64,000 nt of DNA from Myxacorys almedinensis A (lineage in GTDB: Bacteria; Cyanobacteriota; Cyanobacteriia; Leptolyngbyales; Leptolyngbyaceae), in NCBI RefSeq assembly GCF_010091945.1, contig NZ_WVIE01000001.1, positions 273,404 to 337,403 on the forward strand. Direction: 5' to 3'. Shown one piece after another: positions 4,507-16,792 of this stretch; positions within the stretch are counted from its first letter, which is position 1, and every line of letters starts with the position of its first letter. The notes under the pieces are model-generated. The model worked only from the letters and a program-made list of their open reading frames with translations. It ran no database searches and had not been told where the DNA came from. The translations under genes were made by a program, and so were the position numbers.

Positions 4507-5643
4507 TTATGATGTGACAGAAGTTGGGGTGACCGAGGGTGAAACGACAGAGGTTGAATCGCTAGCCGTTTGGATGCGATCGCCAGTGCTGACATCAAAC
4601 CAATGAATCGACTCAGGCGGAAATGCTAGCCGAACGGTGCTATCGATCGCTAAGCGATGTTCGATGCCGACAATGGCGCGAACCGTAATCGGCTCCCCTT
4701 GACCTTGAATTCTGACACTCACAAGATTATGCATTCCCAAGTTTTCGATCAGGAAAACCTGACCATCTAGAGCAGGCTCATGATCAGACTGTGCCAAATG
4801 CACATGCTCTGGGCGAATCCCCAGCGTGATTTCCGTGGGCATATTAGCGCCCCTAGGCAGCGGAATCGGGTGATTGCCTACGATCGCTCGTCTTGACTCA
4901 CAGGGAACCTGCAAGAAATTCATCTGCGGACTGCCAATAAATCCGGCGACAAATCGATTCGCAGGCTCCATGTAGATTCGTTCTGGGGCATCTAGCTGCT
5001 GTAGATAGCCATTGTTGAGCACCGCAACCCTCGTAGAGAGCGTCATTGCCTCAGTTTGGTCGTGGGTGACATAAACGACGGGGGTATTTTGCGTACCAAA
5101 TAGCTGTTTCAACTCTGCCCGGACGTGCTCTCGCAAGAGCGCATCTAAGTTACTCAGCGGCTCATCAAGCAAGAAGACATCCGGGCGGCGCACCAGTGTT
5201 CTGGCAACGGCAACCCGTTGGCGCTGACCTCCAGAAAGCTGACCGGGCTTGCGATCCATCAGATCATGCAAGCCTAAGAAATCAGTCACATCCTGAATTC
5301 GGGTTTGAATTTCACCACTGGGTGTTTTGCGGAGTTTTAGCCCAGAGGCGATGTTCTCTCGCACCGTCATGTGAGGGTAGAGGGCGTAGCTCTGAAACAC
5401 CATGGCAATGTTGCGATCGCCAGGACTCAATCGACTCACATCTTTACCGTTAATCAAGACCTGCCCGCTCGTGGGTTGTTCGAGTCCGGCAATCAATCGC
5501 AAGATAGTCGATTTACCACACCCAGAAGGCCCTAACAGCGTCAAAAACTCCCCGGAACCCACGCTAAGACTAACATTTTTAACAGGAACGACTTTAGCGT
5601 TAAATTGCTTACGGAGATCGACGAGTTCAAGTTTCTTATCCAT
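4507..5643 (-). CDS. Carbohydrate ABC transporter ATP-binding protein (MalK/UgpC type)
   Basis: This 378-residue ATPase probably energises the importer encoded just upstream. Visible motifs are Walker A GPSGCGKST (38-46), Q-loop VFQSYALYPHM, signature LSGGQ (136-140), Walker B VFLLDEP (156-162), D-loop SNLDA and switch histidine in YVTHDQTEAM. The C-terminal 130 or so residues form the TOBE/regulatory region seen in MalK, UgpC and GgtA-type subunits. It is the last gene of a minus-strand set (binding protein, two permeases, ATPase) and lies 82 nt after the second permease, a gap that holds a 13-bp tandem repeat. The substrate cannot be read from the sequence; glucosylglycerol, sucrose or trehalose are candidates for a cyanobacterium. 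Confidence 0.95.
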   Translation of the reverse strand: MDKKLELVDLRKQFNAKVVPVKNVSLSVGSGEFLTLLGPSGCGKSTILRLIAGLEQPTSGQVLINGKDVSRLSPGDRNIAMVFQSYALYPHMTVRENIASGLKLRKTPSGEIQTRIQDVTDFLGLHDLMDRKPGQLSGGQRQRVAVARTLVRRPDVFLLDEPLSNLDALLREHVRAELKQLFGTQNTPVVYVTHDQTEAMTLSTRVAVLNNGYLQQLDAPERIYMEPANRFVAGFIGSPQMNFLQVPCESRRAIVGNHPIPLPRGANMPTEITLGIRPEHVHLAQSDHEPALDGQVFLIENLGMHNLVSVRIQGQGEPITVRAIVGIEHRLAIDSTVRLAFPPESIHWFDVSTGDRIQTASDSTSVVSPSVTPTSVTS

Positions 5644-5668
5644 GATGCTAACGAGTGAAACAATAAAT

Positions 5669-5706
5669 CGGGAAATTACATCGGGAAATTACATCGGGAA
5701 ATCGGC
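5669..5706. repeat. 13-bp tandem repeat between permease and ATPase genes
   Basis: CGGGAAATTACAT occurs twice exactly (5669-5681 and 5682-5694), followed by a partial third copy from 5695. It sits in the 82-nt gap of the ABC operon, upstream of the ATPase start. It may be simple slippage or may affect translation of the ATPase. Confidence 0.8.
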
Positions 5707-5725
5707 AAATAAATAGCGAACCTAT

Positions 5726-6604
5726 CTAGCCTTTAACGGCTCCTGAAGTCAGACCTTGCACGATCCGGCGTTGGAAAAACAACACCAGCAACACAAGGGG
5801 GATGGTGCCTAGCACTGTAGCTGCTGCGATCGGTCCGAAGGGAATCTCGAATGGGGAAGCGCCACCAAGCTGTGCCCCTGCGACTGGAACCGTTTTCAGG
5901 TCTTCGCGAGTAATGAAGGTGAGGGCAAAAATAAACTCATTCCAGGCAGAAATGAAAGTAAGAATTCCGGTCGTAGCTAACGCTGGAATCGTCATCGGCA
6001 AGACAATATCGAGCAACATGCGAGGAGTGCTATATCCATCAACTCTAGCCGCATCCTCTAAATCTTTTGGAAGTTGCTGAAAGAAACTCCGCATGACTAA
6101 AATTGTCAACGGTAAGTTGATTGCTGTATAAGGAATAATCAGCGACAAATAGTTATTGCCCAGGTTAAAGTAACGCACAATATCGAGCAATCCTAGAAAC
6201 AATAGGATGGGCGGAAATAGCGTCACAATTAGAACAGCAGCCAGCATGATGCGTTCCCCTTGAAGTTTGAGCCGAGCCAAGGCATAGGCAGCAGGCGCAC
6301 CAATCCCCAAGGCTAGCACCGTTGAGGCAAGCGAAACCAAAAAACTATTAAAAATGTAGTTGAAAAATGGGCGTCGCTCAAACAGCTTTTGGTATTGATC
6401 TAAGGTGAGTTGATCGGGTCTGGGAAAATAGACATTGGGAATTTCTGCGATCGCAGCATCGGTTTTAAACGAGGTCAGCAGTTGCCACAAAATGGGTGCC
6501 AAACAAAACAGAACGGTCAGAACCACCGCCACCGGCAACACAATGCGCCGAACGCCGTGCTGATGAGCGCTCCTCGGTTGAGATTCTGGAACGGTTGTTG
6601 TCAT
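5726..6604 (-). CDS. Carbohydrate ABC transporter permease (MalG type)
   Basis: This 292-residue inner-membrane permease has about six hydrophobic segments after a short polar N-terminus. The cytoplasmic EAA loop that docks with the ATPase is visible as EDAARVDGYSTPRMLLDIVLP (about 183-202), with the DG core conserved. Its ATG lies 2 nt after the stop of the first permease, so the two are almost certainly cotranscribed and probably translationally coupled. It should pair with that permease to form the translocation channel for an oligosaccharide or compatible solute. Confidence 0.94.
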   Translation of the reverse strand: MTTTVPESQPRSAHQHGVRRIVLPVAVVLTVLFCLAPILWQLLTSFKTDAAIAEIPNVYFPRPDQLTLDQYQKLFERRPFFNYIFNSFLVSLASTVLALGIGAPAAYALARLKLQGERIMLAAVLIVTLFPPILLFLGLLDIVRYFNLGNNYLSLIIPYTAINLPLTILVMRSFFQQLPKDLEDAARVDGYSTPRMLLDIVLPMTIPALATTGILTFISAWNEFIFALTFITREDLKTVPVAGAQLGGASPFEIPFGPIAAATVLGTIPLVLLVLFFQRRIVQGLTSGAVKG

Positions 6605-6606
6605 AA

Positions 6607-7512
6607 TTACACGGCTCCTGAAGCACGTTTTCTAGACCGATTGAGAAAAAAGGTTGCGATCGCAACTACTAACACCAGCAATAGAAACGTCACGACCACC
6701 AACGCCGCGCCATAGCCAAAATCGAGGTATCGCATCACGGTTGAGTAAATGTAGAGCGAGACGGTTTCGGTGCCGCCGCCCGGTCCGCCCCCGGTCATCA
6801 CAGAGATCAGATCGAAGATGCCAAAGGCTTGAGCCAGACGAAACAGCAGCGCAATCACAATTTGCGGCAGCAGCAGCGGCAGCGTTACCTGGCGAAAACT
6901 TTGCCAAGGGCTTGCCCCATCAATGGCTTGCGCCTCATACAAGTCACCGGGAATCGATTGCAGACCCGCCAGCAGCAAAATGCTGATAAACGGCGTCGTT
7001 TTCCAGACATCGGCAATGATCACCGAGATCATCGCCAAGGTTGGATCACCCAGCCAATTGATGCCGGTGCTAATCAGCCCTAGCCGCAGCAAAAGGTCAT
7101 TGACAACGCCATACTGGTCGTTAAAAATCCATGTCCAGGCGAGGGCAATCAGTGCCGTTGGCAGTGCCCAGGGCAAAATCGCGATCGTTCGCACAATCCC
7201 CCGCCCCTTAAACGATTGATTGAGCACAAGCGCAATTCCCATCCCCAGCACCAACTCTAGGGAAACGGTCGCCACTGTAAAAATCGTCGTGTTCCACAAG
7301 GTATTCCAAAACCGCCCATCTTGCGCCATGCGGATGTAGTTACCTAGCCCGTTAAACGCTGGGGTGAGTTGGTTGCCCAAGTTGATGGTAAAAAAACTCT
7401 GCCAAAACGCTCGCAAAATTGGGTAGGCAAACACCAACGCTAAAACAAGCAATGCTGGAATCGTTAGAAACCAACCTGTGCGCCGTTCTTGGGCGCGAAC
7501 ATAATCAACCAT
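6607..7512 (-). CDS. Carbohydrate ABC transporter permease (MalF type)
   Basis: This permease is about 301 residues from the ATG at 7512; the frame is open to 7599, but that extension overlaps the upstream binding-protein gene and is polar and unlike the family. It begins MVDYVRAQERRTGWF and has six predicted membrane spans. The EAA loop reads EAQAIDGASPWQSFRQVTLP, near residue 190. The start is 4 nt after the binding-protein stop, a typical tight operon junction. Together with the MalG-type partner it would form the channel of the importer. Confidence 0.93.
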   Translation of the reverse strand: MVDYVRAQERRTGWFLTIPALLVLALVFAYPILRAFWQSFFTINLGNQLTPAFNGLGNYIRMAQDGRFWNTLWNTTIFTVATVSLELVLGMGIALVLNQSFKGRGIVRTIAILPWALPTALIALAWTWIFNDQYGVVNDLLLRLGLISTGINWLGDPTLAMISVIIADVWKTTPFISILLLAGLQSIPGDLYEAQAIDGASPWQSFRQVTLPLLLPQIVIALLFRLAQAFGIFDLISVMTGGGPGGGTETVSLYIYSTVMRYLDFGYGAALVVVTFLLLVLVVAIATFFLNRSRKRASGAV

Positions 7513-7516
7513 TGGT

Positions 7517-8827
7517 TTAGGCTCCCAGTAAAGAACGAGTTTCACGAGCCGCGGCTTGCAGTGCCTCTTCCGAGGAAGTGCGCCCCGAAATGGCAGCACT
7601 CAGGTAGCGTTGCAGAATATCGGAGGCTTGAGCATATTGAGCAATTTGAGGGCGCAACGCCGGAGTCTGGAGCACTTCTAGCACGAGCGGGAAGTACTCA
7701 TATTTTTTCAACAAATCGGGATCATTGTAGAGCGATCGCAAGCTGGGCAAATATCCGCCCGTCAGCGACGTTTGTTTTTGCACATAGGCACTGGTGAAAA
7801 ATTGAATCGCTTTCCAGGCTTCTTCAGGGTGCTGAGTGGTAGACGCAATTCCCCAACCCCAACCGCCCAAGCAGCCTGCGCTAGTTTGATTTGGGGCATG
7901 CACCATAGGTTTGATGCTAACGTTTCCGCGCACCGGCGACTCTGCTTGGTTTAGCAATTCCCAGGCATAGGGCCAGTTTCGCATAAACACCGTATTGCCA
8001 CTTTGAAATAGGCGACGGGCTTCTTCTTCTTGGTAAGTGCTTACCCCGGCGGGCGAAATGCCCTGCTGGATGGTGCTGAGCAAAAAGTTGAGCGCATTGA
8101 TTGCCTCTGGGCGATCTAACCCGACTTCGTTGGTTTCAGGATTAACCCAAAAGCCACCATAGCCCTGAAGCACTTCGGTAAACATAGCAGCCGTGCCCTC
8201 ATATTGCCGCCCTTGCCAAACGTAGCCCCACTGCACAGCGTCGTTGGCTTGTTGCACGGTTTTTGCCGCTTGGAGCAAATTGGCAAAGGTTTCGGGCGGC
8301 TGTAGCCCAGCTTGCTGGAGGAGATCCGTGCGGTAGTAGAGCATGCCAACATCGGTGCGCCAGGGCAATCGATACAGTTTGCCTTGATAGCGGCTAGCTT
8401 CAATGTCTCCTGGCAAAAAGGTGGCGAGTTCTGCTTGGGAAACCTGATCGTCTAGGGGGCGCAACCAGCCTGCTGCCGCAAACTTTGCGAGCCAAACGAC
8501 ATCCATATTAACCAGATCGTAAGGAGAACTGCCCAGCAAAAACGAAGACGTGTTTAAGTCTTCAACGAGGTTGGTGGCATTGGGAGCCTCGATCATGTTG
8601 AGCCGGATGTTTGGATTGTTGCGCTCAAATTCTGCGATCAGCGGGCGCAGCGTTGGCACCTCTGGTGCATTCATCAAAAACGACAGGACAACGGGCTGAG
8701 ATCGCGCTGGTAAAACAATCAGCAGTGCGGTTAAGGCGAAGGCTGCAATTAAACTTAGGACACGAACTAAAAGCGAGGTTCGCCAATATTTAAGAAGTTT
8801 AAATGAATAGTCTTGAACAATTTCCAT
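7517..8827 (-). CDS. ABC transporter extracellular sugar-binding protein (family 1)
   Basis: About 436 residues from the ATG at 8827 (MEIVQDYSFK); the frame extends 13 codons upstream, but this start gives a more normal N-terminus. One hydrophobic segment near residues 20-40 serves as signal or anchor and ends in PARSQP; no lipobox Cys is seen. The mature part has the family-1 solute-binding pattern: LIAEFERNNPNI, SSPYDLVNMDVVW, LYRLPWRTDVGMLYYRTD and GGWGWGI. It is the first gene of the ABC operon and probably captures a sugar or compatible solute in the periplasm. It resembles GgtB- or ThuE-type proteins, but the ligand cannot be assigned. Confidence 0.92.
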   Translation of the reverse strand: MEIVQDYSFKLLKYWRTSLLVRVLSLIAAFALTALLIVLPARSQPVVLSFLMNAPEVPTLRPLIAEFERNNPNIRLNMIEAPNATNLVEDLNTSSFLLGSSPYDLVNMDVVWLAKFAAAGWLRPLDDQVSQAELATFLPGDIEASRYQGKLYRLPWRTDVGMLYYRTDLLQQAGLQPPETFANLLQAAKTVQQANDAVQWGYVWQGRQYEGTAAMFTEVLQGYGGFWVNPETNEVGLDRPEAINALNFLLSTIQQGISPAGVSTYQEEEARRLFQSGNTVFMRNWPYAWELLNQAESPVRGNVSIKPMVHAPNQTSAGCLGGWGWGIASTTQHPEEAWKAIQFFTSAYVQKQTSLTGGYLPSLRSLYNDPDLLKKYEYFPLVLEVLQTPALRPQIAQYAQASDILQRYLSAAISGRTSSEEALQAAARETRSLLGA

Positions 8828-9232
8828 GGGGGTTTGATCGTCAAGCGATCGCAAGTTGCAGGACAAAACAAATGCAAATTGCAGAAACGCGAATTTTCAA
8901 GCGATCGCGCTCTTCTACATCAGATAGAAACCGTGCTAATCATAATACCTAATGAGGAATTTTATCGGAAATCAGCCGTTTGTAAGCTCTCCGCTTTTGA
9001 AAGGGAGGGTTAATACTTTTCAACCTAAACGGTTTGATCCCTGACCCTCATCTTCTTTAAGAGGGATTAAATGAGAACAAATATTAAGTTAAATAAAGAA
9101 GTTTAAGGGTCTATCAAGGCTGAAATGAGAAACTAGGAGCCGATGGGTGGAGAGTGGATGGGTAGGTCAGGAATCCAGTCCATCTCCCCCTCTCCCCGTC
9201 TCCTCAAAGAGGTCAGTTGCCAATACTAGAGT
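8828..9232. other. Intergenic region upstream of the ABC operon
   Basis: About 400 bases without a convincing gene. It holds HIP1-type GCGATCGC sites (8845-8915), a possible minus-strand promoter near 8942-8970, and an imperfect G-rich/C-rich inverted pair (GGTGGAGAGTGGATGGG near 9145, CCATCTCCCCCTCTCC near 9180) that could fold beyond the DUF4079 gene. Confidence 0.5.
8942..8970 (-). promoter_or_regulatory. Possible promoter of the ABC importer operon
   Basis: On the minus strand a TATTAT box (8942-8947) lies 17 bases after TTCCGA (8965-8970), which matches TTGACA at only three positions. The predicted start would leave a leader of about 100 nt before the binding-protein ATG. The case is weak and rests mainly on the -10 box. 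Confidence 0.25.
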
Positions 9233-9958
9233 TTATCGAACAGGCGCAGAGGGCTGGACAACACAGGGATTTTTATCACACTGCAATTGGTAGAGTTTCT
9301 GCACATACGGCTCTTGCCAACTGAGCGGCACTTCCAGGAGTGACAGAGTTCCAGTAAAACCTTGCCCAATAAATAGCAACAGTGCAAACGTGTTAAGCAC
9401 AATATGAATCGTTCGCCAACGATTCGTGCGATCGCTATAAATATCTTTCAAAACAGACAACGAAAAAATAAGCAGCAGCGCGGCAGCCATCCCATAGTAG
9501 TAATGGGAAATGTACCACTGAGCGGTTTTACGATAAATGCCATCTTGGCAGCCCAAAATGACTAACGCCATGCCGCTAAGCGTTGCAAAAACTGCCCGCC
9601 AAAGCCGTTTTTTCGCCCGATAAAGCAACGCAAAAGATGCGATCGCGGCTATAAACATAGCGACAACAAAACTCACTTGAAACGGGGTTTGGTTCCAAGC
9701 TTGAGTCTCTACCCAATGGCTAGTGAGATCAAATCCAAGGGCTAGCAAAACCGCCCCAACCACGGCTCCGGTGAGCCAACGCCCAAGCTCGACATGCTCG
9801 TGCCCAACTACGGGTGAAATTTTGCTTTTACCTGTGTCAGCCGTTTGCAGTCGTCTCTGTCTCACCTGAAAAGCCCGGTGAACGACAATCCCAAGGAGTG
9901 GAAAAACCACAACAACTGCAAACACGGGATGGAGCAGCAGTAGCAGATCTTTACTCAT
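9233..9958 (-). CDS. DUF4079 family membrane protein
   Basis: This is a 241-residue integral membrane protein with about six spans, matching the DUF4079 family of cyanobacteria and plastids. I chose the ATG at 9958 because GAGGTGAT, a near-perfect ribosome site, lies just before it; the GTG at 9964 falls within that site. Histidines sit at or near helix ends (LLLHPVFA, IVVHRAF, SHWVE, ISHYYYG, RTIHIVL), a pattern compatible with b-type haem binding, though that is inference. The DM13 gene is 211 nt upstream on the same strand. No function is established. Confidence 0.85.
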   Translation of the reverse strand: MSKDLLLLLHPVFAVVVVFPLLGIVVHRAFQVRQRRLQTADTGKSKISPVVGHEHVELGRWLTGAVVGAVLLALGFDLTSHWVETQAWNQTPFQVSFVVAMFIAAIASFALLYRAKKRLWRAVFATLSGMALVILGCQDGIYRKTAQWYISHYYYGMAAALLLIFSLSVLKDIYSDRTNRWRTIHIVLNTFALLLFIGQGFTGTLSLLEVPLSWQEPYVQKLYQLQCDKNPCVVQPSAPVR

Positions 9959-10169
9959 GATCACCTCTAAAGCACATGTGATAGTAACACGGTAGCGATA
10001 AGTTAATTAGCATCGGAGCAGACCCAATAAGAAATAGATCCGACAAAAGAGCGTTAACAATGGATAAAAAACGGATGAAACAGATCCGGTATAGATAAAA
10101 ATCAGTTTTTTCAGATTTTCCGCTTTCATCTCTGCTCCATCCGTGACTCAGTTTGCGGTCAAAATCACG

Positions 10170-10676
10170 TTACCTTAGTGATGCATAGCCAAAGGTGGCA
10201 TTTGCCATGCGGCACCAGATGCCGACAGATCGAAACTTGCTCACATCAACGGCAGCAGGAATCGGATATCGCTGCTCTCCGTTTACCTTTTCTAGCTTGC
10301 CCAGGTTGACGTAGCTCGTCGGGTCTTGATACTGTGCGGGCGGCTGTGTAGCCGGATCAAGCACAACGTGCAAATCCGGTCCTGGGTCGGTTTTGAAGGC
10401 GCTATCTAACACAAGATAGCGTTTGCCATTGTCCACCACAATTCGAGCCATGCCAGAGGTGGGATGCTCTGCTGAGACAAAGGTTCCGCTGGCTGCAATG
10501 TTTTGAGCAACGGCTTGGATTGGGATAGACGCGATCGCAGCATCAGAACGAGTTTGGCTGACGTACTGTTGCCCACTGGTGATCGGTTGCAGGGCTTGAG
10601 CCGCCAGCGGAAGCGATAGCGCGATCGCAGAGAAAAGAGCAAACGAAACGGGGGACTTAAAGTTCATAAAATTCAT
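10170..10676 (-). CDS. DM13 domain secreted protein
   Basis: This 168-residue protein has a signal peptide (hydrophobic stretch ending LPLAAQALQP near residue 30). Its C-terminal 105 or so residues form a DM13 domain: FVSAEHPTSG, NGKRYLVLD, FKTDPGPDLHVVLDP, EKVNGEQRYPIPAAVD, VGIWCRMANATFGYASL. DM13 is predicted in the literature to be an extracytoplasmic electron-transfer domain, with the Cys of the IWC motif as a candidate redox residue (here one such Cys). It lies upstream of the DUF4079 membrane gene and divergent from the glycosyltransferase gene. A periplasmic location is inferred. Confidence 0.9.
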   Translation of the reverse strand: MNFMNFKSPVSFALFSAIALSLPLAAQALQPITSGQQYVSQTRSDAAIASIPIQAVAQNIAASGTFVSAEHPTSGMARIVVDNGKRYLVLDSAFKTDPGPDLHVVLDPATQPPAQYQDPTSYVNLGKLEKVNGEQRYPIPAAVDVSKFRSVGIWCRMANATFGYASLR

Positions 10677-10997: not shown

Positions 10998-13271
10998 ATG
11001 AACAACACTCATCAGCATCAGCAGATTGCGGCAGAAAAATTGTGGAGGCAAACGTTGCTGCCTCAACTTGCAACCTTGATTATGTTTGGCGTCATTGCGA
11101 TCGCGGCGTTAATCTCGGTGGCTTGGTTTAGCGGTCAAGGTACCATTCTCACCATCTTCGAGCATCTCAACGCCCTTCAAGAGATGCCGCCGATCTGGTT
11201 AGCTGTCCCCATGGTGACAGGCGAATATCTGCTGTTTTGGGCAGTATTTCTGATGCTGATCGTGCTGGCAATCACCAAGCTATCTCCCACTCCACAACCC
11301 TGGTCACGAGCGCTGGTTGTAGGAATTTTAATTGTGTTGTCGGTTCGCTATGTGCTGTGGCGATCGCTCTCAACGCTAAACCTGAGTAACCCGCTCACGG
11401 GGGTGTTTAGTTTGGGGTTGTTTTTTCTAGAACTCTTGATCTTGGGAAGCGGCATGATCCAGTTAGTGCTGTTGCTGCGGGTAAAAGATAGAAGATCAGA
11501 AGCCGATCGCCTTTCGGTTGCCGTGTGCGATCGCACCTTTACACCCAGTGTTGATATTTTGATCCCAACCTACAACGAGCCGCCATTTATTTTACGGCGT
11601 ACCATTATTGGATGCCAAACCTTAGACTATGAGGCAAAAACCATCTACCTGCTTGATGATAAAAGACGCCCCGAAGCAAAAGCCCTAGCCGAAGAGTTAG
11701 GCTGCCAGTATCTAGCCCGACCAGACAATCTTCATGCCAAAGCAGGCAATTTAAATCATGCCTTGGCGCATACCCACGGCGAACTAATCGCCGTATTTGA
11801 TGCAGACTTTATTCCTACTAAAAATTTTCTAACTCGCACCGTCGGCTTTTTTCAAACCCCTCTGGTTGGCTTAGTCCAAACGCCGCAAACCTTTTATAAC
11901 GCAGACCCGATCGCTCGCAATCTAGGGCTAGAAGATGTGCTGACTCCTGAAGAGGAGGTGTTTTATCGGCAGATTCAGCCGATTCGCGATGCAGCAGAGG
12001 GGGTGATTTGTGCAGGCACATCGTTTGTAGTGCGGCGATCGGCATTGGTAGATGCCGGATGTTTTTTTACAGGAGCACTGAGCGAAGATTACTACACCGG
12101 TATTCGGTTAGCGGCGAAAGGCTACCGCTTGATCTATCTCAATGAAAAACTGAGTGCTGGTCTTGCCGCCGAAAATATTTCTGCCCAAGCCCTGCAACGA
12201 TTGCGGTGGGCACGGGGAACTCTGCAAGCGTTCTTTGTAAATGCAAATCCGCTCACAATTGCGGGGTTGCGTCCGATTCAGAGGCTTGCCCACCTAGAGG
12301 GCATCTGGCACTGGTTTACCAGTATTTCACGAGTCGGTTTTTTACTGTTTCCATTAGCGTATTCATTTCTAGGTATTATTCCATTACGAGCAACAATGGC
12401 TGAGCTTTTATATTATTTTCTGCCCTATTATTTAGTGCAACTCACTACCTTCTCTTGGCTAAATCATCGATCTCGATCAGCGCTATTGTCGGATTTATAT
12501 ACGCTCGTGCTTGCGTTCCCGTTGGCAATAACGGTTCTTCAAGTGATGTCAAATCCATTTGGTCAAGAGTTTCGAGTGACCCCAAAGGGAACGGTCAGCG
12601 ATCGCTTTCGCTTTAACTGGCGGCTGGCTTTTCCGTTGATCATTATGTTTGGCTTAACTGCAATTAGTTTATGGACAAACTTAGGCTATACGCTTTTGTT
12701 TGGCAGCGACGAACTGATGATGACGGCTGAACGCACAGATCAGATGAGAGGCCTTAATCTAGGTTGGATATGGAGTGCTTACAACCTGTTAACGCTAGGA
12801 ATTGCCTTGCTGATTTTGATCGATGCGCCTTCTCCTTATTCCTATGACTGGTTTAATCTCCATCGCACCGTGAAGCTAACGGTAGGGGAGCAAACGGTGT
12901 GGGGATTTACAACAAAAATTTCTGAGGTTGGGGCAGAAGTGGCGTTAACTCAGGCAGAATTTCCGCTCACGAGCGACGCTGTTTTACTGGACATGAGCAT
13001 TGTGGAAAACGATCTGACGATGCAGGGGCATGTGATTCATAGAGAATTTAAAGGCGCGTTTCCTACGGTGCGAATTCAGTTTGAGCCGTTGCCGTTGGGT
13101 CAAGAGCGCCGCCTTATCGAGATGTTGTTTTGTCGCCCAGGGCAGTGGCAAAGCCGTTGCGCGCCTGGGGAGATGCGATCGCTATGGCTTTTGCTCAAGG
13201 TTTTGCTCACACCACGAGTTTTATTTGATCGCAAAGCAGAAATTAGGGCAGTTTCTGTCAGTCAAGTTTAG
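10998..13271 (+). CDS. Cellulose synthase-like processive glycosyltransferase (GT2) with PilZ domain
   Basis: This 757-residue inner-membrane enzyme has four hydrophobic N-terminal segments and a cytoplasmic GT2 domain with the D,D,D,QxxRW set: LLDDKR (about 220), DADF (268-271), LSEDYYTG (about 363) and QRLRW (400-404). More membrane spans follow. A PilZ-like region begins near residue 620 (LHRTVKLTVGEQTVWGFTTKISEVGAEV), but the canonical RxxxR and DxSxxG c-di-GMP residues are only partly recognisable. The family polymerises UDP-sugars and exports beta-glucans. No bcsB, bcsZ or bcsC partner is nearby, so cellulose itself is not certain. Confidence 0.9.
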   Translation: MNNTHQHQQIAAEKLWRQTLLPQLATLIMFGVIAIAALISVAWFSGQGTILTIFEHLNALQEMPPIWLAVPMVTGEYLLFWAVFLMLIVLAITKLSPTPQPWSRALVVGILIVLSVRYVLWRSLSTLNLSNPLTGVFSLGLFFLELLILGSGMIQLVLLLRVKDRRSEADRLSVAVCDRTFTPSVDILIPTYNEPPFILRRTIIGCQTLDYEAKTIYLLDDKRRPEAKALAEELGCQYLARPDNLHAKAGNLNHALAHTHGELIAVFDADFIPTKNFLTRTVGFFQTPLVGLVQTPQTFYNADPIARNLGLEDVLTPEEEVFYRQIQPIRDAAEGVICAGTSFVVRRSALVDAGCFFTGALSEDYYTGIRLAAKGYRLIYLNEKLSAGLAAENISAQALQRLRWARGTLQAFFVNANPLTIAGLRPIQRLAHLEGIWHWFTSISRVGFLLFPLAYSFLGIIPLRATMAELLYYFLPYYLVQLTTFSWLNHRSRSALLSDLYTLVLAFPLAITVLQVMSNPFGQEFRVTPKGTVSDRFRFNWRLAFPLIIMFGLTAISLWTNLGYTLLFGSDELMMTAERTDQMRGLNLGWIWSAYNLLTLGIALLILIDAPSPYSYDWFNLHRTVKLTVGEQTVWGFTTKISEVGAEVALTQAEFPLTSDAVLLDMSIVENDLTMQGHVIHREFKGAFPTVRIQFEPLPLGQERRLIEMLFCRPGQWQSRCAPGEMRSLWLLLKVLLTPRVLFDRKAEIRAVSVSQV

Positions 13272-14039: not shown

Positions 14040-14885
14040 ATGATTGGGGTGAAGCGCATGTATGGTAAAAGTTTTATACAATTATCTGAAGTTGGCAGTT
14101 TTTCACCTGTGAATTTTCCGGTTTACATTGGCGTTGGCGCATTCAAACTCCATCCGCACCTGTTTTTTGAAGCGATCGCATACTCGGTGGCATTGCGGTT
14201 ATCGCTGCGAAATTTTCGTCGTCATGGCGTTTCGCCCCCTCATCGTAGTTCGATTGTGGTTGGTGGTCTTGCGGGTGCCTTAATTGGCGCAAAAGTGCTG
14301 GTGATGCTGCAACACATTGATATTTTTTGGCAGCATCGGGAACAGTTTTTTTGGCTGCTGCTTCAGGGTAAAACCATTGTTGGGGCGCTATTAGGCGCGG
14401 TAATCGGCGTCGAGATTACGAAGAAAATTCTTGGGATCAAGCAATCGACAGGAGATGCTTTCGTTTATCCATTGATTTTAGGAACGGCGATCGGACGGTT
14501 GGGCTGTTTTTTGACAGGACTTAGCGATCGCACGTATGGCATTGCCACCGATCTACCGTGGGGCGTTGATTTTGGTGATGGGCTTTTACGGCATCCAACG
14601 CAGCTTTATGAAATTGCATTTTTGTTGATATTAATGATTTTTTTGCGGGTGCGATCGTCTAAAACTTGGCAACATCAAGCTCGCTATCCCATCCAGTCCG
14701 GAGATTTGTTTAAATTCTATTTGATTAGTTATTTAAGTTTTCGATTTTTAATTGACTTTATTAAGCCAGATTTCCATCCAGTGTTAGGATTAACAGCAAT
14801 CCAAATTGCCTGTCTTCTAGCACTGGTTTACTATCGCAACAGCCTTCCTAAATTGCTTAGTTTTTCTGTAAAAAATTCTCTGTAA
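14040..14885 (+). CDS. Lgt-like (prolipoprotein diacylglyceryl transferase-related) membrane protein
   Basis: This 281-residue polytopic protein follows the Lgt fold order: a first segment with an LHPHLFFEAIAY-type start, a membrane core, GTAIGRLGCFLTG (like the Lgt GRIGxFxNG motif), RHPTQLYE (like HPSQLYE) and YLSFRFLIDFIKPD. The central HGG motif of true Lgt is replaced here by GKTIVGALLG. It is therefore probably a paralogue rather than the housekeeping enzyme. A radical SAM gene follows 81 nt downstream and then a small membrane gene, suggesting a shared lipid-related role (inference). The start could also be the ATG at 14058. Confidence 0.85.
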   Translation: MIGVKRMYGKSFIQLSEVGSFSPVNFPVYIGVGAFKLHPHLFFEAIAYSVALRLSLRNFRRHGVSPPHRSSIVVGGLAGALIGAKVLVMLQHIDIFWQHREQFFWLLLQGKTIVGALLGAVIGVEITKKILGIKQSTGDAFVYPLILGTAIGRLGCFLTGLSDRTYGIATDLPWGVDFGDGLLRHPTQLYEIAFLLILMIFLRVRSSKTWQHQARYPIQSGDLFKFYLISYLSFRFLIDFIKPDFHPVLGLTAIQIACLLALVYYRNSLPKLLSFSVKNSL

Positions 14886-14914
14886 AAATTCGTCGCTAAC
14901 GCTGTTTAGCTATC

Positions 14915-14962
14915 GTTCAAGGTTATAAGTTCAACGCTACATGTTCAAAGTTATAAGTTCAA
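14915..14962. repeat. 20-bp direct repeat in the leader of the radical SAM gene
   Basis: GTTCAAGGTTATAAGTTCAA (14915-14934) recurs at 14943-14962 with one mismatch. The period is 28 bp, and the second copy ends 4 nt before the ATG at 14967. The copies may be a regulator site, or part of the translation-initiation region; no clear Shine-Dalgarno sequence is present. Confidence 0.85.
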
Positions 14963-14966
14963 ATGT

Positions 14967-16415
14967 ATGCCAACTCGCCCTTATTTGTTTTACGCCTTGA
15001 CAAATAGTGTGTGTTCTACATGTCTCACGAAAGTTGAAGCGAAAATTATCTTTCAAAATGGAAAGGTTTACCTTGTCAAACACTGTTTAATTCATGGACG
15101 AGAAGAAGTTTTAATTGCGGATGACATCGAATATTACAAGCAATGTCAGGACTTTATTAAGCCTGGAGATATGCCCCATCGGTTTAACACGCCCATTAAA
15201 TATGGCTGTCCCTACGATTGCGGCTTGTGCCCGGATCATGAACAGCACAGTTGTTTAACGCTTGTTGAAGTCAGCGATCGCTGCAATCTTTCCTGCCCGA
15301 TTTGTTATGCCGATTCGGGAGCAGAGGACGTTTCAAGCACCAATCAACCCCGTCGTCACCGCAGTTTAGAGGTGATCGAGCGCCTATTGGATAACATTGT
15401 TGCTAATGAAGTCGAACCGGATATTGTGCAAATTAGTGGTGGCGAACCCACAATTCATCCAGAATTTTTCGAGATTTTAGACCTCGCTAAACGCAAACCG
15501 ATTAAGCATTTGATGATCAATACCAACGGGTTGCGAATTGCTCACGATTGGGACTTCTGCGATCGCTTAAGTCAATATATGCCAGGAATCGAGATTTATT
15601 TGCAGTTCGATAGTTTTGAAGAAAGAGCGCTGCGAGAATTACGAGGAGCAGATTTGCGCTCTGTGAGACAAAGCGCGATCGCACATCTGAATGAGTTCAA
15701 CATTTCAACAACGCTGGTTTCAACGGTTAAAAAAGGACTCAACGATCACGAGATTGGCAAAACCATTAACTTTGCCTTGCAGCAACGATGTATCCGAGGG
15801 GTCAGCTTTCAGCCGATTCAGGCAGCAGGGCGGTTAGAAAATTTTGATCCGAAGCGCGATCGCTACACCCTCACCGAAGTTCGCCGCGCCATTTTAGATC
15901 AAAGTCCTCACTTTCAGCCAAAAGATCTTCTACCTGTGCCCTGCCATCCCGACTGTTTAGCCATGGCGTACGCGCTTAAAGTCAAAGGTCAGGTTATCCC
16001 TCTCACTGGATTGCTCGATCCCACAGCATTTCTCAATGCGATGCCAAACTCAGTGTTATATGAGCAGAATTCAGAATTAAAAAACCAGATCTTTAAGCTG
16101 TTTTCCACCAATCATTCTCCCGATTCATCAGCAACAACACTCAAACAATTATTGTGTTGTCTTCCGTTGATCCCGGTTCCCACAGGAATCACTTACGAAA
16201 ACGTGTTTCGGGTTGTCATTATGCAGTTCCTCGATCCGTTTAATTTTGATGTTCGTTCGGTTAAACGCTCCTGCATTCACATTGCCCATCCTGATGGTCG
16301 TATCATTCCTTTTGATACTTACAACATGTTTTATCGAGAGGGCAGTGCCGGATATCGCCTCATCGATCCTGCGGAGCGTCGTAAAGCAAATCGCACTTTG
16401 CAGGAGCATTCGTGA
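14967..16415 (+). CDS. Cysteine-rich radical SAM protein, Tes/MJ0619-like
   Basis: This 482-residue enzyme has several cysteine groups. An N-terminal C16xxC19 precedes C40 and C60. A CxxxCxxC at 81/85/88 plus C96 (GCPYDCGLCPDH) follows. The canonical radical SAM CxxxCxxC is at 106/110/113 (CNLSCPICYA), and the SAM-binding GGEP is at 158-161. Later cysteines include VPCHPDC (326, 330), C397-C398 and C436. This layout resembles archaeal MJ0619/Tes (tetraether lipid synthase) and its bacterial relatives, which carry extra Fe-S clusters. The neighbouring Lgt-like gene supports action on lipid chains, but the substrate is inference. Its stop overlaps the next start (TGATG). Confidence 0.88.
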   Translation: MPTRPYLFYALTNSVCSTCLTKVEAKIIFQNGKVYLVKHCLIHGREEVLIADDIEYYKQCQDFIKPGDMPHRFNTPIKYGCPYDCGLCPDHEQHSCLTLVEVSDRCNLSCPICYADSGAEDVSSTNQPRRHRSLEVIERLLDNIVANEVEPDIVQISGGEPTIHPEFFEILDLAKRKPIKHLMINTNGLRIAHDWDFCDRLSQYMPGIEIYLQFDSFEERALRELRGADLRSVRQSAIAHLNEFNISTTLVSTVKKGLNDHEIGKTINFALQQRCIRGVSFQPIQAAGRLENFDPKRDRYTLTEVRRAILDQSPHFQPKDLLPVPCHPDCLAMAYALKVKGQVIPLTGLLDPTAFLNAMPNSVLYEQNSELKNQIFKLFSTNHSPDSSATTLKQLLCCLPLIPVPTGITYENVFRVVIMQFLDPFNFDVRSVKRSCIHIAHPDGRIIPFDTYNMFYREGSAGYRLIDPAERRKANRTLQEHS

Positions 16416-16792
16416 TGGGCAGGCACTATCAACGTCTAGAACGCAACAAAGGTATATTCACTGCCTTCGGGCTAAACCTTGTAGCCTGGGGTATTTACAG
16501 CGTTTGCTTATCGGTTATGGAAGATCGATTTTCTCCGCAGGCTTGGCAACCTGGAGGCGTTTCTGCTCCCCTGCGTGCGGTTCACAACGCCTTGGTTTAT
16601 CTGTCTTACGGCATTGGCTTTACTCAACTCTTTCACATCGTGCCGTGGGTTACTCGGCTCGTCGTTCAGCGACAGTTTGAACGGGCAAACGGTGTGATGA
16701 TCGGTGCATTGATCACTGCCTTGCTCTGCGGCGGATGCTTTGTGCTATTTTTCCCATACCTCACCGCTCAGAGCACCATGTTCTGGCGATGA
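16415..16792 (+). CDS. Small membrane protein coupled to the radical SAM gene
   Basis: This unrecognised protein of 125 residues starts at the ATG at 16415, which shares one base with the TGA of the radical SAM gene; a GTG at 16412 is also possible. It has three hydrophobic segments: IFTAFGLNLVAWGIYSVCL, HNALVYLSYGIGFTQLFHIVPW and ANGVMIGALITALLCGGCFVLFF. The overlap implies translational coupling, so it probably works with the radical SAM enzyme, perhaps as a membrane anchor or electron-transfer partner (inference). A hairpin near 16917-16945 could end this transcription unit. Confidence 0.75.
   Translation: MGRHYQRLERNKGIFTAFGLNLVAWGIYSVCLSVMEDRFSPQAWQPGGVSAPLRAVHNALVYLSYGIGFTQLFHIVPWVTRLVVQRQFERANGVMIGALITALLCGGCFVLFFPYLTAQSTMFWR

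Follow-up and report, generated by a model that had tools for sequence, protein, structure and literature searches.

In a 64,000-nucleotide stretch of the genome of the cyanobacterium Myxacorys almedinensis A (hereafter the window; the genome assembly comprises 4.96 Mb in 85 contigs), a gene for an Lgt-like membrane protein and a gene for a radical S-adenosylmethionine (SAM) enzyme of the Tes superfamily form a co-occurring, usually adjacent pair, which is kept across bacterial phyla. On the strength of sequence, predicted structure and analogy, we tentatively suggest that the pair modifies phospholipid acyl chains, the likeliest outcome being tail-to-tail coupling into a membrane-spanning lipid. 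The Lgt-like protein (258 aa) is encoded at 14109..14885, within a longer open reading frame (ORF) that begins at 14040, and was assigned by Pfam LGT and the starts of its homologues; the radical SAM enzyme (482 aa; 14967..16415) was assigned by Pfam and NCBIfam, the structures 7tol/7tom and residue counts. A small membrane protein (126 aa from GTG 16412; 16412..16792), identified by its sequence and an iterated family hidden Markov model (HMM), follows. All three plus-strand ORFs named in a preliminary description of this DNA are thus present, and that their grouping exceeds chance is backed by the neighbourhood and co-occurrence surveys below. The description's reading of the three as a conserved set stands in part: the first two genes are found together across phyla, while the small gene is a less constant third member.

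Distribution of the gene pair in bacterial genomes

Scanning genome contigs with the radical SAM profile yielded at least 556 relatives, the best 80 of which, a non-random sample, constitute the loci discussed here; together with the window they give the 81 sequences of the HMM-based counts. ORF-based counts draw on 74 radical SAM rows and 61 Lgt rows (the ORF caller dropped 7 of the 81 radical SAM genes), the trees on 76 loci with both genes in the same stretch, and the structure predictions on 73 and 71 rows chosen by hand from the loci and the protein hits. Residues were also counted among the 120 database proteins listed, 47 of the 80 genomes were covered by the Tes-family search, and paralogue scores refer to 3 of 4 acidobacterial paralogues.

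The best 80 carriers belong to the cyanobacteria, Bacilli, Bacteroidota, Acidobacteria, Planctomycetota, Xanthomonadales, Melainabacteria, Omnitrophota and other groups, so the system is not peculiar to cyanobacteria. The Lgt-like gene lies upstream on the same strand within 350 bases in 66 of the 80 loci (median gap between HMM matches, 23 bases) and within 3.2 kb in another 8; in 1 it is downstream, and in the remaining 5, the Lgt-like match is found elsewhere in the genome (384, 325, 256, 200 and 194 bits). No further ORF cluster within ~8 kb was common to more than 10 of the 80 loci.

In a sample of 291 genomes from the window's class, each gene was present in 24 and both in 23 (Fisher p 8e-32, with relatedness ignored). 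Of 104 genomes from the family to which Paenibacillus chitinolyticus belongs, the same 16 carried both genes; in three of these the Lgt-like match was broken into two, and in one of those three the radical SAM match, too, was partial. Of 58 relatives sampled earlier, 8 contained a closely matching radical SAM gene (≥76% identity; in one genome the match was divided between two contigs), and 7 of these 8 had an Lgt-like match above 190 bits; the other 50 had one Lgt-like remnant and otherwise matches at the level of canonical Lgt (≤50 bits) or none. A short Lgt-like remnant with an in-frame stop (G021:C28:765102-765359) was seen in a cyanobacterium without a radical SAM match, as would be expected after loss of the cassette. 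Between the two gene trees, distances are correlated (r 0.77 over 76 loci, versus ≤0.15 in 500 permutations), to which common descent contributes, and cyanobacterial, Bacilli, Bacteroidota and xanthomonad groups appear in both trees.

The Lgt-like protein

Translation probably starts at GTG 14109, where homologues begin and where the database protein prediction P0121 (258 aa, 100% identity to the window protein) also starts. The protein scores 102.8 bits to Pfam LGT (PF01790), above the gathering cut-off of 24.9, and stays far below the NCBIfam Lgt equivalog cut-offs (63.2/334 and 50.6/118.9 bits for the two best models). It shares with E. coli Lgt (PDB 5azb) the fold, the RHPxQLYE region and the residues R143, Y235 and R239, which correspond to R130, Y208 and R212 and are kept in 71/71 aligned rows. 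It differs in that N146 is replaced by C133, Y26 by His (69/71 rows), and His103, the histidine of the HGG motif, by V91, a position occupied by V, I or L in 71/71 rows. Within the family H17, E21 and K88 are conserved. A canonical Lgt is encoded on another contig of the same genome (G000:C66, 280 bits to Pfam LGT) and retains the histidine, its motif being HGA instead of HGG. The reading of the window protein as a divergent Lgt paralogue without HGG is thereby borne out; the proposed kinship to prenyltransferases is to be dropped, as Lgt is not a prenyltransferase.

Because the lipid-site residues are retained and the acceptor histidine is gone, ordinary lipoprotein lipidation by the paralogue appears unlikely from its sequence; E. 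coli Lgt is reported not to complement without His103. In Cohnella sp. CFH 77786, a second Lgt-related protein (L050, 695-1495; 180 bits to the family HMM) is encoded close to the cassette; it has Gln where HGG has its histidine (IQGALIGG), and its signature motif contains a Cys.

The radical SAM enzyme

The CxxxCxxC motif at 81/85/88, the canonical one at 106/110/113 and the extra cysteines of the preliminary description are all confirmed, the last being C16/C19/C40 (with H43), C96, C326, C330, C397, C398 and C436. A rubredoxin-type site (C16/C19/C40/H43; C-X2-C-X20-C-X2-H) and an N-terminal cluster (C81/C85/C88/H91, matching C73/C77/C80 and a His of MJ0619) are found in 80/80 loci, the window and 120/120 of the listed database proteins. 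With the radical SAM cluster (C106/C110/C113), three of the four Tes metal sites are retained in the family, and the C-terminal cluster region is altered (C326, C397, C398, C436, D450). Cys326, Cys397, Cys398 and Cys436 are invariant, Cys398 being present in 0/8 outgroup rows. The Tes architecture (7tol/7tom) is maintained through residue 460 in the predicted structure.

The protein belongs over its full length to the Tes/MJ0619 superfamily and not to an unrelated radical SAM family with a known substrate. The narrower designation as Tes-type holds less well, since by NCBIfam score it is nearer TrsS (NF045646, 314 bits, cut-off 490) than Tes (NF045702, 282 bits, cut-off 450), neither cut-off being reached. 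The same holds for five other members (Bacilli, Bacteroidota, Acidobacteria, Xanthomonadales and Melainabacteria), with 320-333 bits to TrsS and 267-298 to Tes. In a tree rooted on MJ0619, 77 members group as a single clade (support 0.83) whose sister is a TrsS-like protein, with a support of 0.197 for the deeper order; the closest named database relative is from Myxacorys (93% identity). In comparison with Tes/GDGT-MAS (MJ0619), homology is full-length and the whole fold, the rubredoxin site and the ligands of the N-terminal and radical SAM clusters are shared, whereas identity is 32%, the NCBIfam cut-off is missed, Cys470 and Tyr459 give way to Asp/Glu and Ile, C326 and C397-C398 are present, and an Lgt-like partner is nearly constant.

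TrsS, a (seleno)protein model, is matched almost over its full length, although below cut-off. The TrsS-like protein L188 (336/490 bits) has Cys at the position of the family's D/E450 and Ala at that of C398. Its gene, on a plasmid of Mycolicibacterium vanbaalenii (5299-10339), overlaps that of a DVU_1556-like methyltransferase (136/155 bits), and genes for CcdA, a disulfide oxidoreductase and an Rv1681-family radical SAM protein lie nearby. Four acidobacterial genomes (G085, G075, G082, G087) carry, beside the Lgt-linked enzyme, a second Tes-type paralogue (L108-L111) of ~520 aa with 26-28% identity to the window protein; it lacks the MJ0619 N-terminal cluster cysteines in the alignment, and three of its proteins score 319-328 bits to Tes and 206-214 to TrsS, the reverse of the Lgt-linked family. 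At L186 (4483-7427; G098:C53), two Tes-superfamily radical SAM genes stand in tandem, with no Lgt-like match in that 12 kb.

The small membrane protein

The in-frame start of the small gene (GTG 16412 or, alternatively, ATG 16415) overlaps the stop TGA of the radical SAM gene (TGATG), as had been noted. A database search returned only the window's own protein and one relative (Myxacorys, 70% identity), and an iterated HMM built from the loci placed the small protein downstream in 46 of the 80, as well as in the window. At L027 the match lies upstream of the Lgt-like gene, and at L005 it runs to the contig end; another 14 loci, of which 12 belong to Bacteroidota, carry a short ORF that the HMM does not match and that is predicted to form two or three helices. 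Parts of the Paenibacillaceae and Acidobacteria among the 80 loci gave no candidate, and the protein is therefore probably accessory. Its Cys109, near the C-terminus and outside an N-terminal lipobox, is conserved in 32/32 aligned rows.

Proposed function and alternatives

Radical modification of acyl chains is favoured because both proteins have lipid-binding relatives, the Tes architecture is kept and so are the phospholipid residues of Lgt. The Lgt-like protein would bind phosphatidylglycerol (PG) or a comparable lipid. The radical SAM enzyme, expected to be cytosolic, would take a hydrogen from an acyl tail via the 5'-deoxyadenosyl radical, and its C-terminal cluster might hold the resulting carbon radical. 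The likeliest product would be a tail-to-tail coupled, membrane-spanning (diabolic-type) lipid, made most simply on PG-type lipids, with the small membrane protein possibly assembling or anchoring the pair. GDGT-MAS has been reported to bind E. coli phospholipids, work from 2026 describes membrane-spanning lipids of bacteria that bear PG head groups, and Mss and bacterial Tes homologues have likewise been proposed to couple acyl tails. The exact product is the least certain step, as the C-terminal cluster region is altered.

A number of observations weigh against this proposal. With respect to linkage, unlinked Lgt-like matches are weaker in G098 (194 bits) and G088 (256 bits), and that in the genome of L005 (200 bits) is partial and at a contig start. 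In the class sample, one genome with the radical SAM gene lacks an Lgt-like match (G010, 97% complete), and one with the Lgt-like gene lacks the radical SAM gene (G168, 62% complete); the 24 + 24 matches include partial ones (radical SAM in G001, G147, G311 and G337; Lgt-like in G147 and G188), and 7 of the 24 radical SAM genomes belong to one genus (g92). Acidobacteria are one group in the radical SAM tree and split in the Lgt tree, and the two trees place Melainabacteria and the relatives L052/L059 differently. To our knowledge, cyanobacteria are not known to make diabolic acids. The TrsS-like gene stands beside a methyltransferase gene and not Lgt, and for TrsS itself, the nearest NCBIfam model, we found no described function in the open-access literature, where it figures as a table entry in a selenoproteome review. 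The Lgt active site is reported to be periplasmic, so that it and the radical SAM enzyme would be expected on opposite sides of the membrane.

Further points of the same kind concern the C-terminal cluster. MJ0619 Cys470 is replaced by Asp (64) or Glu (17) in 81/81 sequences and is Cys in 8/8 outgroup rows, Tyr459 is Ile in 81/81, and the labile Met439 is Met in 61/81 and in only 32/120 of the database proteins listed. Both Met439 and Tyr459, which lie beside the cluster, are reported to be fully conserved in 1,000 archaeal homologues. Since the GDGT-MAS variants Y459F, Y459L and M439A reportedly remain active, we regard the Cys470 replacement as the change that, judging by the alignment, is most likely to alter the outcome, and as the main warning. 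C326 and C397 also occur outside the family, L188 having both and the four acidobacterial paralogues C326, and residues 350-368 and 393-404 of the model have a predicted local distance difference test score below 50.

The rebuilt cluster could also mean that the enzyme acts on lipid tails but forms something other than a C-C bond, namely a sulfur-bearing, desaturated or methyl-branched chain, an unlikely outcome that nonetheless deserves serious attention. We know of no characterised family member, and the cluster-binding residues are not visible in the predicted model, both of which speak against it; the combination of Asp/Glu at Cys470, Ile at Tyr459 and C397-C398, seen in 81/81 members and 0/8 outgroup rows, speaks for it. 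GDGT-MAS is reported to release thiolated lipid when SAM is limiting, and S-C bond-forming radical SAM enzymes are said to tolerate non-cysteine cluster ligands. It is improbable that the enzyme is TrsS-like, with a non-lipid metabolite or a protein as its substrate and the Lgt-like protein as a transporter or sensor: although the TrsS model outscores Tes for the window and 5/5 other members and the family has a TrsS-like protein as its sister in the tree (family node support 0.83), the cut-off is missed (314/490 bits), the partner is Lgt-like and not a DVU_1556-like methyltransferase, and the Tes fold is predicted to persist through residue 460. We give similarly little credence to a specialised lipoprotein modification, in which the Lgt-like protein would still transfer diacylglyceryl, with a special acceptor, while the radical SAM enzyme would tailor that lipid or acceptor. 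The Lgt fold, the retained lipid-site residues and the invariant cysteine of the small partner (32/32 rows) agree with it, but His103 is missing in 71/71 rows, that cysteine is near the C-terminus and not in an N-terminal lipobox, and the ~8 kb surroundings hold no other ORF cluster common to more than 10 of the 80 loci. Activity as a 7,8-dihydro-6-hydroxymethylpterin dimethyltransferase, the name on many database entries and echoed by the Pfam zinc ribbon named HMPTM, can practically be dismissed, as MJ0619, the first bearer of this annotation, was shown to be a lipid synthase by authors who call the pterin-methylase label incorrect.

Returning to acyl-chain modification, we further put forward, as a rather doubtful generalisation, that bacteria including cyanobacteria, Paenibacillus relatives and Bacteroidota may make an undescribed radical-crosslinked or sulfur-bearing phospholipid, the repurposed Lgt presenting the phospholipid and the Tes-type enzyme with its rebuilt C-terminal cluster joining or thiolating the tails.

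Relation to published work

Zeng et al. reported 456 bacterial Tes homologues and proposed a role for them in membrane-spanning lipids such as branched glycerol dialkyl glycerol tetraethers, whose bacterial producers are described as still incompletely known; the word 'cyanobacteria' does not occur in the text and Lgt is not mentioned in the portions examined. A 2026 paper on Bacillota defines Mss homologues by >30% identity and E ≤1e-30. Among the matches listed from the open-access literature (subscription papers and preprints being outside the scope), no paper assigns a function to the Lgt-like/radical SAM pair. A study of soil single cells (PMC12010503) describes a Pseudarthrobacter region of ~3,500 bases with radical SAM and prolipoprotein diacylglyceryl transferase genes, found in three cells but absent from a fourth, which would, if of the same family, be a candidate independent observation of the two genes as a unit that is present or absent as a whole.

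The Lgt-linked family adds a second component, a repurposed Lgt, to the bacterial Tes homologues, and its sequence signature separates it from the Tes, TrsS-like and acidobacterial Tes-type sequences compared; several of the carrier organisms are in culture. Should the pair produce a lipid that spans the membrane or is radical-modified in another way, this would extend what is known of bacterial membrane chemistry and be relevant to lipid biomarkers; failing that, a lipid-synthase fold would be serving some other purpose. Either way, the Lgt fold would serve beyond lipoprotein lipidation.

Neighbouring genes

Upstream of the pair, the window encodes a cellulose-synthase-like glycosyltransferase with a PilZ domain (10998-13271), which scores under the CelA equivalog cut-off and falls outside the ORF clusters common to many loci. 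On the minus strand, at 9233-10676, a gene for a DUF4079 membrane protein adjoins one for a DM13-domain protein.
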